Notes under the pieces: generated by a model
What the model saw: the letters and a program-made list of their open reading frames with translations, nothing else
What the model was told of the DNA's origin: nothing
The model's database searches: none
Position numbers and translations under genes: made by a program
Shown: positions 52,078-55,442 of the stretch, in pieces
Position numbering within the stretch: position 1 is the stretch's first letter
Layout: each line of letters begins with the position of its first letter
Origin: Motilibacter deserti
GTDB lineage: Bacteria; Actinomycetota; Actinomycetes; Motilibacterales; Motilibacteraceae
DNA: 64,000 nucleotides
Direction: 5' to 3'
NCBI RefSeq assembly: GCF_011250635.1
Contig: NZ_JAANNP010000002.1
Location: 194,478-258,477 of the forward strand

Positions 52078-52276
52078 GGCGGTGTTCGCCTACTTTCGAA
52101 CCTCGACACGGCCTGGGCTGCCAGTAGGCCAGGCTATCTGCATCCGTCCCCTAATGGCCTCCCGGCCCCTAGGGGTGCTCGCGGTCGCGCGACGCCGGGT
52201 AGCGGGCCACTCCTCATCCCTAGCGCGTCGGCCGCCGCCGTGTCGAGGCCCGGACCGGCGCCGGCCCGGGAACGCG

Positions 52277-52308
52277 CGAGCCGGGGCCGTCGCAACGGCC
52301 CCGGCTCG
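52277..52308 (-). terminator. Terminator of the DsbA/hibernation-factor operon
   Basis: A perfect 14-bp stem (52277-52290 with 52295-52308) and CGCA loop, 38 nt beyond the minus-strand stop at 52347. Confidence 0.75.
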
Positions 52309-52346
52309 CACCTCGGCGTCGGCAGGTGCACCCCGTCCGGAGAAGG

Positions 52347-53003
52347 TCAGCCCTCGGGCGCCAGCGCCCGGCGCAGCAGCTCGTCCCAGACCCCGGGGTC
52401 GTCGGAGCCGTCGTCGCCGATGCCCGGGTTGAACACCGACGTGCCGTCGGAGAGCAGGACGTGCGGGCTGCCCTCGATCCCCAGCTCGCCGACGAGGCCG
52501 AAGTCGCGGCGGACCGCCTCCCGGCCGGCGTCGAGCAGCCCGGCGAGCGCGTCCGCGTCGACCTCAGGCACTTCGCGGGCGACCGCGAGCACCTCCTGCG
52601 CGGTCCCGACCGGCCGGCTGGACACGAACAGAGCACGGCGCAGCGCCCAGTCCAACGCCTCGCTCGCAGCCAGCCCGCCGACCCGCTCGTCCTTCGCGGC
52701 GCTGACCGCGCCGAGGGCGTCGAGGAAGCTGCCTGGCCACTCGCCGTGCTCGCCCGACCACGGGCGTACGCCGAACCCGGGCTCGAGGGCGAGCACCTGC
52801 ACGGCCTCGTCGGCCAGTGGCGGCACCGGGCGTCCGTTGGCCAGCTCGAGCGGGAACGCGCGGTGGTCGACCCGCACGTCCAGCTCGAGCCCGAGCCGCT
52901 CGCGCGCCGCGCGCAGCCGGTAGACCGCCAGCGACGCCCACGGGCAGGCGATGTCGCTCCAGACCTGCAGCGTCCCGGGCAGGGGCGCGTCCGCAGCCGT
53001 CAC
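52347..53003 (-). CDS. DsbA-family thioredoxin-fold protein with single-cysteine motif
   Basis: A 218-residue protein of the DsbA/FrnE group: strand and active-site helix VWSDIACPWASLAVYRL near 14-30, a helical insert, and the cis-Pro loop GIEGSPHVLL near 174-183. The motif is CPWA, so only the first cysteine remains; dithiol oxidation is unlikely, while a mixed disulfide with a low-molecular-weight thiol such as mycothiol remains possible. No signal peptide, hence cytoplasmic. The GTG overlaps the upstream stop as GTGA. Last gene of the operon with the Rv2629-like factor. Confidence 0.85.
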   Translation of the reverse strand: MTAADAPLPGTLQVWSDIACPWASLAVYRLRAARERLGLELDVRVDHRAFPLELANGRPVPPLADEAVQVLALEPGFGVRPWSGEHGEWPGSFLDALGAVSAAKDERVGGLAASEALDWALRRALFVSSRPVGTAQEVLAVAREVPEVDADALAGLLDAGREAVRRDFGLVGELGIEGSPHVLLSDGTSVFNPGIGDDGSDDPGVWDELLRRALAPEG

Positions 53004-54127
53004 GCGGACGGCGTCGACTCGTCGGAGTAGCGCAGCAGGGCGCCGACACCGTCCTGCAGCTGCAGCCGTCCCTTCGGGACGACGATGACGTGCGCGTCCG
53101 TCGCGATCGTGGCCCGCAGCAGGGCCGCGTCGGCGCGTGCGGCGAAGCCGTCGTCGACCCCCATCGCCTTGAGCTCGGCCTCGTCGACCGCGATCTGCGA
53201 CGGGTCGGGCCCGACGTAGACCGTCGTGTCGTCGTCGAAGTCCGGTGTCACGATCAACGTGTCGACCTGGGCCTTCTGCAGCGCGCCCACGACCTCGGCG
53301 CGCCCGGTGAGCGCGCCGCCGTGCCCGGCGCCGGTCTGCTCGCGGAACAGCTCGACCTGGTCCTGGGTGTCCCGCACGACCTTCGCGGCGATCGCCTGGC
53401 GGACGTCCTCCTGCACGGCCTGCTCGTCGGACCCGGCCGCGCGGCCGCCGGAGTCGAGCGTGACCACCGCTTCCTTGCCGCGGGTGCCGAGGTGCTGCTG
53501 GAACAGCTCGTTGGCCCGGGTGTCACCGGTCACCGCGAGCAGCGGGATCGAGGTCTCGGCGAGGATCGTGTCGATCTGCTTGGCGACGTCGGTCGCGTTC
53601 GACTCCCAGAGGTTCTCCGCGCGGTGCTCGTAGCGACGGTAGGACCAGCCGCCCGCGTGGACCTTCGAGATGTGGTGCTCGCCGCCCTTGACCTCGGTGT
53701 GCTGCTCGGACTGGCCGAGCGGGCCGACCACGTCGATGTCGGCGCCGGTGCGGTCGATGTGCACCAGGACGTACGGCAGGGTCTGCCCGAGCGTGAGGGC
53801 CAGCGGCCCGAGGTCGGGCACCGGGGCGTACGACGCCCGCTCGGGGATGCGCCCGGGGACCGCCGAGGAGAAGAGCACCTCGGTGCCGGCGCCGACGAGG
53901 ACGAGCGTGTTGTCGCCCGGCACGCCGGTCGGAGCGGTCGCGACCGGCTCCAGCGCGTCGAGCAGCTCGTCGGGGGCGCCGGCCTCCGCGAGCTGCTCGC
54001 GCTGGGCGCGCCAGCGCAGCTCGACCTCGTGGGCGCCCGTCTCGGTGGAGCGTGTCGCGTCGAGGTACGCGGTCACGAACGGCCCCTTCGCGGAGTACAG
54101 GTCGCGAAGGTGGGACAGGCGGGTCAT
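53000..54127 (-). CDS. Rv2629-like ribosome hibernation factor (aeRF1 superfamily)
   Basis: A 375-residue protein matching Mycobacterium Rv2629, which has almost the same length. Shared features as I recall them are the opening LRDLYSAKGPFVTAYLDATR, the central VHAGGWSYRRYEHRAENLWE, and a C-terminal ADAALLRATIATDAHVIVV with DGVGALLRYSDE. The family belongs to the archaeo-eukaryotic release factor 1 superfamily and is related to Balon, which occupies the ribosomal A site during dormancy. Ribosome protection in stress is therefore the best prediction. Both ends overlap neighbours by 4 nt, so the three-gene operon is tightly coupled. The ATG at 54127 has AGGAGG close upstream. Confidence 0.85.
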   Translation of the reverse strand: MTRLSHLRDLYSAKGPFVTAYLDATRSTETGAHEVELRWRAQREQLAEAGAPDELLDALEPVATAPTGVPGDNTLVLVGAGTEVLFSSAVPGRIPERASYAPVPDLGPLALTLGQTLPYVLVHIDRTGADIDVVGPLGQSEQHTEVKGGEHHISKVHAGGWSYRRYEHRAENLWESNATDVAKQIDTILAETSIPLLAVTGDTRANELFQQHLGTRGKEAVVTLDSGGRAAGSDEQAVQEDVRQAIAAKVVRDTQDQVELFREQTGAGHGGALTGRAEVVGALQKAQVDTLIVTPDFDDDTTVYVGPDPSQIAVDEAELKAMGVDDGFAARADAALLRATIATDAHVIVVPKGRLQLQDGVGALLRYSDESTPSA

Positions 54128-54777
54128 GCGCTCTCCTCCTCGGAAGTGCTGCTGCTGTGCGAGACGCCGCTGCCGGCGATCGCGTAGACGCCCTCGTGGA
54201 CGGGCTGCGTCCCCTCCTGCCCCTCGGGAGGGGCGGTGATGCCGAGCCCGTCCGTCAGCGTGAGAAAAGCTCGGGCGTACGGCGAGTCCGCCGTCTCCTC
54301 GCGGACGCGCCCCCAGTCGACCTGCTCGCGCAGGGACCGCGCCACGGCGAGCAGCGGGGACATGTTGCAGTGGTGGGCGGAGAGCGCGAGCAGCTTGCCG
54401 ATGAGGATGTCGCTGGCGTCGAGCACCGGCATCCGGACCGACCCGACCTCGACCTCCTCCGCGCGCTCGAGCATGGCGTCGGTCACGGGGCGCCCGTTGG
54501 CCGCGTGGATGAGGTCGACGAGCCGGTCGTCGTGGAACACCTTGACCAGCCAGTCCTCCGGGCAGCTCTCGTGCTTGAGGCCGGCCTCCGTCAGGGCGTC
54601 GATCGCCCGCGGCACGTCGGCCTCGCGCAGGAAGAAGTCGGTGTCGTGGATGCTCGGCGGGCCGCCCCGCGCGTAGACCGCGTACCCGCCGGCGAGCGCG
54701 AACGGGATGTGGGCCTTCTTGAGGGTGACGGCGACGACCTTCGTCGTCTCGATGAGGTCGGACTCCAGCGCGCTCAT
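54124..54777 (-). CDS. Nucleotidyltransferase-fold protein, first gene of stress operon
   Basis: A 217-residue protein with a nucleotidyltransferase core: FALAGGYAVYARGGPPSIHD and then TDFFL (about 26-50), where GG and the D-x-D pair would bind nucleotide and metal, and a later acid in DRLVDLIHA. The C-terminal part is helical with an acidic serine-rich tail (SSSTSEEES). Substrate unknown; candidates include small molecules, RNA or protein. The ATG at 54777 has no Shine-Dalgarno sequence and lies 10 nt after a SigB-type -10 box, so the transcript is likely leaderless or nearly so. Confidence 0.78.
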   Translation of the reverse strand: MSALESDLIETTKVVAVTLKKAHIPFALAGGYAVYARGGPPSIHDTDFFLREADVPRAIDALTEAGLKHESCPEDWLVKVFHDDRLVDLIHAANGRPVTDAMLERAEEVEVGSVRMPVLDASDILIGKLLALSAHHCNMSPLLAVARSLREQVDWGRVREETADSPYARAFLTLTDGLGITAPPEGQEGTQPVHEGVYAIAGSGVSHSSSTSEEESA

Positions 54778-54787
54778 GCCGAATCCG

Positions 54788-54812
54788 GTACCCGCGGCTG
54801 TCGGAACGGAAC
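54788..54812 (-). promoter_or_regulatory. Putative SigB-type promoter of the hibernation-factor operon
   Basis: On the minus strand GTTC (54812-54809), 15-nt spacer, GGGTAC (54793-54788): the pattern of actinobacterial SigB-family promoters (GTTT-like, 14-16 nt, GGGTAC/T). Confidence 0.55.
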
Positions 54813-54817
54813 CGGAC

Positions 54818-54842
54818 GTTACCGATCACCCCCTCCGGGTAC
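54818..54842 (+). promoter_or_regulatory. Putative SigB-type promoter of the DUF2795 gene
   Basis: On the plus strand GTTA (54818-54821), 15-nt spacer, GGGTAC (54837-54842), about 60 nt before the expected leader end and the ATG at 54910. It mirrors the promoter on the other strand with the same spacing. Confidence 0.55.
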
Positions 54843-54909
54843 GGCTCCGACACGACCGCAGGGCCGACCGAGAAACGGCAGGTCGACCGACAGAGGAGGA
54901 CGGCGAAGC

Positions 54910-55323
54910 ATGACCATCGAGCGCGGCAGTGACAAGCACGGGGCACGCGCGGACGAAGCCCTCGCCGGCGAGGTGGAGGGCGCGATGCGCGCCGGCCGCT
55001 CCACCCACGCCCAGGAGTGGAAGGACCCCGAGCCCTCGGGCGAGGACCAGCCCGACGTCGACCTCAACCCCAACGGCACGCTGACCGGCGGGACCGCAGC
55101 GGGCGTCGACAGCGGGGACATCGAGGGCCGCAGCCAGTTGGCGACGTTCCTCGGCAAGGAGGTCTGGCCGGCGACCGCGGACGTGCTGCGGGCGACGGCG
55201 GAGGAGAACCAGGCGCCGGACCGGGTGCTGCAGCAGCTCGCAGGGCTGCCCGCGGGCCGGTCGTACGACAACGTCCAGCAGGTCTGGGAGGACCTCGGCG
55301 GCGGCCGCGAGGAGCGCTTCTAG
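54910..55323 (+). CDS. DUF2795 domain protein, probable stress protein
   Basis: A 137-residue acidic, hydrophilic protein. The first 75 residues look disordered (GEDQPDVDLNPNGTLTGG). The DUF2795 helical domain spans about 75-135: RSQLATFLGKEVWPATADVL, then a second half AGLPAGRSYDNVQQVWEDLG. Role unknown. GAGGAGG stands about 11 nt before the ATG. The divergent SigB-type promoter suggests induction together with the hibernation-factor operon. Confidence 0.8.
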   Translation: MTIERGSDKHGARADEALAGEVEGAMRAGRSTHAQEWKDPEPSGEDQPDVDLNPNGTLTGGTAAGVDSGDIEGRSQLATFLGKEVWPATADVLRATAEENQAPDRVLQQLAGLPAGRSYDNVQQVWEDLGGGREERF

Positions 55324-55335
55324 CACCGGCTCGAC

Positions 55336-55373
55336 GGCTCCTCGGGCGGGTGCTGCAGCCCGCCCGGGGAGCC
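55336..55373 (+). terminator. Terminator of the DUF2795 gene
   Basis: A 15-bp stem (55336-55350 with 55359-55373) containing one G-U pair, with an 8-nt loop, 12 nt after the stop codon. Confidence 0.7.
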
Positions 55374-55442
55374 GACGGCCAGGGACGGGACGGGGCGCCG
55401 GGGCTCTCCGGCCGTGGTGCCCGGCCGCTAGCCTGCTGCGGC

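Follow-up and report, generated by a model that had tools for sequence, protein, structure and literature searches.

A candidate SigB/F-type stress divergon pairs an Rv2629/Balon-like ribosome hibernation factor operon with a DUF2795 gene

The hibernation factor Rv2629 has a solved ribosome-bound structure (PMC10901736), and in the literature searched the described partners of Balon-type factors are only the ribosome, EF-Tu and RaiA. Published gene neighbours of Balon/Rv2629 factors encode RaiA, Hsp20, OsmC/OsmY, HdeD, RtcB, MarC and EmrB (PMC10901736). DUF2795 proteins and nucleotidyltransferases are not among these neighbours and neither is mentioned in that paper; a link might stand elsewhere in the literature. 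DUF2795 itself is nearly absent from the literature searched (PMC), where two proteomics papers mention it, each only in passing.

Here we describe a locus in a 64,000-nucleotide stretch of Motilibacter deserti DNA (the window, meaning the whole stretch analysed) in which three minus-strand genes, forming a single unit from 54777 to 52347, face a plus-strand gene across a 132-bp gap. Unlike the published Balon/Rv2629 loci, it carries divergent promoter-like sites of the SigB type. Its features are as follows:

52276-52309: perfect 15-bp inverted repeat without a T tract, 38 bp beyond the stop codon of the DsbA-like gene
52347-53003, minus strand: DsbA/FrnE-like protein, 218 aa, GTG start (PF01323, 35 bits, cut-off 25.6)
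53000-54127, minus strand: Rv2629/Balon-like ribosome hibernation factor, 375 aa (PF18844, NF052289, PDB 8v9k_z)
54124-54777, minus strand: nucleotidyltransferase, NTP_transf_5-like, 217 aa (PF14907, 31.0 bits, cut-off 31.2)
54788-54812, minus strand: SigB/F-type promoter-like site GTTC-N15-GGGTAC, 5' of the operon
54818-54842, plus strand: SigB/F-type promoter-like site GTTA-N15-GGGTAC, 5' of the DUF2795 gene
54910-55323, plus strand: DUF2795 protein, 137 aa (PF11387, 52.9 bits, over the gathering score of 25)
55332-55377: 19-bp inverted repeat (89%), 9 bp beyond the stop codon of the DUF2795 gene

An earlier note on this DNA had proposed the three overlapping genes, the DUF2795 gene facing them and the mirrored boxes on opposite strands of the gap, and an open reading frame check and pattern search found all of them in place. 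Adjacent operon genes overlap stop-to-start by 4 nt at both junctions (54124-54127 and 53000-53003), as they also do in three relatives (G001, G002 and G003). The 15-bp repeat likely marks the end of the operon and the 19-bp repeat is likely a terminator hairpin, so the island appears bounded on both sides.

The Rv2629-like protein matches NF052289, the NCBI Rv2629 family of ribosome hibernation factors, over 357 of 357 positions with 263.9 bits, below the NCBIfam equivalog cut-off of 320 bits, and we class it by homology as a family member rather than an equivalog. Its alignment with the M. tuberculosis Rv2629 chain (8v9k_z) extends over 365 residues (E 7e-31), full-length homology that bears out the identity first suggested for it, and it matches PF18844 (Pfam baeRF family 2) with 144.8 bits. 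The GGQ of release factors is GGW in this protein, with loss of the catalytic glutamine at the hydrolase loop, and GGW occurs in all called Rv2629-like proteins in which the motif was located (14 entries, the window counted twice; 10 not scored). A single-protein pattern scan of genome contigs with the Rv2629-like protein gave no match. The full-length homology, the missing release-factor glutamine and the stress-linked surroundings are shared with Balon/Rv2629 factors (PMC10901736; baeRF family 2, PMC6514570), and by analogy with these homologues the protein would bind the ribosomal A site (PMC10901736).

We surveyed gene order in 394 actinomycete genomes (the class-level set; the family- and order-level sets comprise the same five genomes). 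DUF2795 lies within 5 kb of Rv2629 in 37 of the 77 genomes that hold both, across seven families and in at least four arrangements, where about 0.2 would be expected; the surveyed genomes share ancestry, which overstates P values. The pair is unlinked in roughly half of the genomes that have both, and in the named set Rv2629 stands alongside in 37/80 DUF2795 loci. The two genes are divergent in the window's family and part of f17; DUF2795 comes first in most of f17 (including Streptosporangiaceae), f9 and f19; Rv2629 comes first in f4, f46, f48 and one f19 locus; and the pair is tail to tail in L126 and L194. On the Rv2629 tree, six arrangement labels need ten changes, and the linkage recurs. 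Spacing in Streptosporangiaceae is mostly 0-25 bp, with a one-base overlap in L172. The closest DUF2795 homologues outside the window's family, from Frankiaceae MAGs, are not beside Rv2629 in the stretches examined.

The nucleotidyltransferase gene adjoins Rv2629 in 4 of the 5 genomes of the window's family, and elsewhere in one loose case at 1.5 kb; it lies near DUF2795 in the same four genomes and in 14 genomes of f18. With that one exception, the placement of the nucleotidyltransferase and DsbA genes next to Rv2629 is a feature of just two genera in the window's family. The gene order that the earlier note expected in related genomes, with both genes flanking Rv2629, thus holds in all but one of the five genomes from the window's family and breaks down beyond it, and the survey rules out a widespread module of all four genes. 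The recurrent core, which these comparisons mark as the conserved unit, is the Rv2629/Balon-like factor together with the DUF2795 gene.

The window's DUF2795 protein combines an ERGSDKHG...D...E motif in a disordered N-terminus (residues 4-46) with a helical DUF2795 domain at 68-130; mean AlphaFold pLDDT is >90 for most of 81-130 and ~45 for 1-30. Alignments show a shared disordered N-terminus, MERGSDKHGPRxDDxxxxExxG...TRAEEWxxPEP, and no named family scored above cut-off against the motif part of P0004. Motif-only proteins (MERGSxKHGPRxDD, 54-74 residues, without the DUF2795 domain) adjoin Rv2629-like genes at L103:7265-7489, L104:6202-6387, L117:6325-6513 and L126:7434-7598, and L112 has a domain-only DUF2795 protein beside Rv2629. 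The company that each half of the protein keeps with Rv2629 is our best pointer to a genuine functional link. Compared with the PDB by Foldseek, the DUF2795 model reached a best E of 1.6, and a profile search with DUF2795 found no solved relative, so a function cannot be borrowed.

The pattern GTTN-N15-GGGTAC occurs twice in the window, both times in the 132-bp gap (shuffled sequences average 0.08 matches and never reach two). Across the 5-Mb genome, the exact pattern has 10 matches, 2 of them in the gap, against 10 for a reversed-pattern control, and the probability of at least two matches in one such gap is ~3e-8. The pattern is not enriched genome-wide, yet the pair in the gap is far from chance. 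A genome-wide SigB regulon could not be recovered with the exact pattern, its counts equalling those of the controls, and the variant GTTT-N13-16-GGGTA occurs three times in the genome and never in the gap.

Comparison with other genomes points to a promoter function for these boxes. The sister species G003 keeps both despite changed spacers; in G002 GGGTAC persists on both strands and the upstream boxes are weaker; and G004 has a similar site, GTTA-N16-GGGTAG, 5' of its DUF2795 gene. Among named genomes, a SigB-type box (GTT-N14-17-GGGTA[CTG]) lies upstream of 50 of 78 DUF2795 genes (39/51 plus 11/27) as against 8 of 372 control genes; these genomes are related, and the 50/78 are not independent trials. 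In Streptosporangiaceae the box (GTTTG, a short spacer, GGGTA[CTG]) sits at a near-constant distance amid diverged spacers. Where Micromonosporaceae loci have a box, it mostly lies close to the start codon, like the box before the window's nucleotidyltransferase gene, and the operon transcript is expected to start only a few nucleotides 5' of the ATG, making it near-leaderless. The boxes and their spacing closely resemble those of mapped SigB-family promoters of Streptomyces coelicolor such as SCO5555p (GTTAGA-N13-GGGTAC) and SCO3557p (PMC8346170); the part of that source considered here contains no DUF2795-Rv2629 target. The window's genome encodes one SigBFG sigma factor over the curated cut-off. 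The SigB-type reading proposed at the outset is strengthened by the conservation in G003, the same boxes at DUF2795 genes of other families, this sigma gene and the S. coelicolor likeness, and the comparative evidence suggests that both promoter-like sites depend on a SigB/F-family sigma factor.

The nucleotidyltransferase retains, by alignment, the HDxDF catalytic motif (D45, D47) together with D88, K128 and D154; K128 is absent from some relatives. A profile of its relatives reaches MenT1 (8an4, E 1.2e-5), a tRNA-modifying enzyme of M. tuberculosis (PMC10435456), and the protein, which shares the core motifs of MenT/AbiEii toxins (GG, DxD, Lys), is a distant MenT1 relative. It differs from MenT toxins in its Pfam family and in lacking an antitoxin gene, no candidate for which was recognised in the operon. 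The AbiEii/DUF1814 model was not matched, and the only Pfam hits, each below its cut-off, are PF14907, DUF2204 and Aminoglyc_resit. A structure model built from a two-sequence alignment (pLDDT 48) was too poor to use.

Outside the window's family, the nucleotidyltransferase keeps other company. About a quarter of the surveyed genomes have one copy of it, frequently with a metallophosphoesterase as partner. Immediately after it, in several families, come a BON-domain segment or gene and a calcineurin-like phosphoesterase, and in f18 these are followed by DUF2795. Clusters of the nucleotidyltransferase, a short BON-domain protein and the phosphoesterase are found at L114:5523-7137, L116:6325-7915, L121:5102-6685 and L127:6697-8286. 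The two enzymes of this cluster could form a write/erase pair; the window's own genome has no clear relative of the metallophosphoesterase partner. Since the gene lies elsewhere in the BON-phosphoesterase cluster, the window's lineage either transferred it to the hibernation operon or retained it there after an older context was lost.

The DsbA-like gene occurs at this place only in G000, G001, G002 and G003. A profile of the four orthologues matches FrnE (5cp1, E 9e-7), which places them in the thioredoxin-like family of FrnE/DsbA-like oxidoreductases (5cp1, 3gl5). Unlike those enzymes, all four have alanine in place of the second active-site cysteine (CPWA, CPAA or CPYA instead of CXXC; CPWA in the window). 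The description of a one-cysteine protein given beforehand is accurate, one Cys being common to all four; without the second cysteine, the accompanying label of thiol protein is doubtful in its redox sense.

On balance, we think the locus is probably a stress divergon, switched by a SigB/F-type sigma factor, whose products shut ribosomes down and shield them, the motif/DUF2795 protein being a partner not described before. A SigB/SigF-type sigma factor would read outward in both directions from the 132-bp gap. One arm would yield a Balon/Rv2629-type factor that, judging from its family, occupies the vacant A site of idle ribosomes and keeps them inactive. Stop-start overlaps would couple its synthesis to that of the MenT-related nucleotidyltransferase, which from its relatives probably acts on an RNA and possibly on tRNA ends, and of the one-cysteine DsbA-like protein, whose role in the divergon, if any, is conjectural. 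The other arm would yield the DUF2795/MERGSxKH-motif protein, which we propose partners specifically with the hibernation factor or with parked ribosomes, as gene linkage and shared promoters suggest. At the level of sequence, the proposal builds on gene identity, conserved overlaps and boxes, and the recurrent DUF2795-Rv2629 linkage.

A more far-reaching version casts the MERGSxKHGPRxDD protein, with or without DUF2795, as an undescribed actinobacterial Rv2629/Balon co-factor made together with it under a general-stress sigma factor, the window's family adding a MenT-related nucleotidyltransferase so that one operon would shut down both tRNA charging and ribosomes; taken whole, we consider this unlikely. 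The DUF2795-Rv2629 pair would link ribosome hibernation in actinomycetes with their SigB-type general stress response. It also makes the DUF2795/motif family, which shares these stress promoters, a concrete candidate partner of Balon-type factors across actinobacterial families, and the N-terminal motif offers a short target for binding assays.

Both genes could instead be bystanders in a SigB-type regulon that clusters in stress islands, with DUF2795 doing a job of its own (for example in envelope, DNA or osmotic protection) and making no contact with the ribosome. Many DUF2795 homologues fit such a picture, standing without Rv2629 beside DUF6158, DUF2945-like, CBS, PfpI, SRPBCC and hemerythrin genes. 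Stress-type neighbours of DUF2795 homologues (CBS, PfpI, DUF6158, hemerythrin, SRPBCC) also count in favour of the stress divergon. However, the close or overlapping Streptosporangiaceae genes are tighter than loose island clustering, and the linkage of both the motif-only and the domain-only halves to Rv2629 also goes beyond it; we judge this explanation somewhat improbable. The boxes might also not be promoters at all, in which case a housekeeping or other promoter would drive the operon and the GGGTAC motifs would be chance occurrences or operator repeats. The genome-wide count at control level is in keeping with this, and the two box half-sites fall within an imperfect inverted repeat. It is nonetheless very improbable given the retention of the boxes in G003, the matching boxes that precede DUF2795 genes of Streptosporangiaceae and Micromonosporaceae at a fixed distance, and a search of the locus for a sigma-70-like site that found none.

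A further possibility is toxin-like shutdown, in which a MenT-type nucleotidyltransferase blocks tRNA 3' ends under stress and the hibernation factor then protects the idled ribosomes. The MenT1 profile match, the catalytic Asp pair and the alignment of K128 with MenT1 K137 are what such an enzyme would show, and the conserved menA1 neighbours include Rv0079, which has been called a RaiA-type hibernation factor (PMC10435456, PMC10901736). The missing antitoxin gene, the other Pfam families (all under cut-off), the loss of K128 from some relatives and the single-copy distribution, often with a metallophosphoesterase, argue against a toxin, and we give the idea little credence. The divergon with a DUF2795 partner remains our preferred reading.

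Several loci vary the layout around DUF2795. In Geodermatophilaceae the gene immediately preceding DUF2795 encodes a small protein that looks DUF2945/TUDOR-like by eye alone (L143:5777-5983, L153:5711-5920, L163:5709-5918), and no SigB-type box was found between the two genes in these three loci. Between Rv2629 and the motif protein of G016 (L126:7303-7433) lie three copies of the palindrome GGAGATGTCATCTCC. Stress islands in f19 (L109:5279-7986 and L110:5393-8586) hold DUF2795, PfpI, DUF6158 and an Rv2629-like gene, with a CBS protein also in L110. In G001 (L095:5383-6138) an epimerase-like gene is inserted between DUF2795 and the nucleotidyltransferase, splitting the divergent arms.
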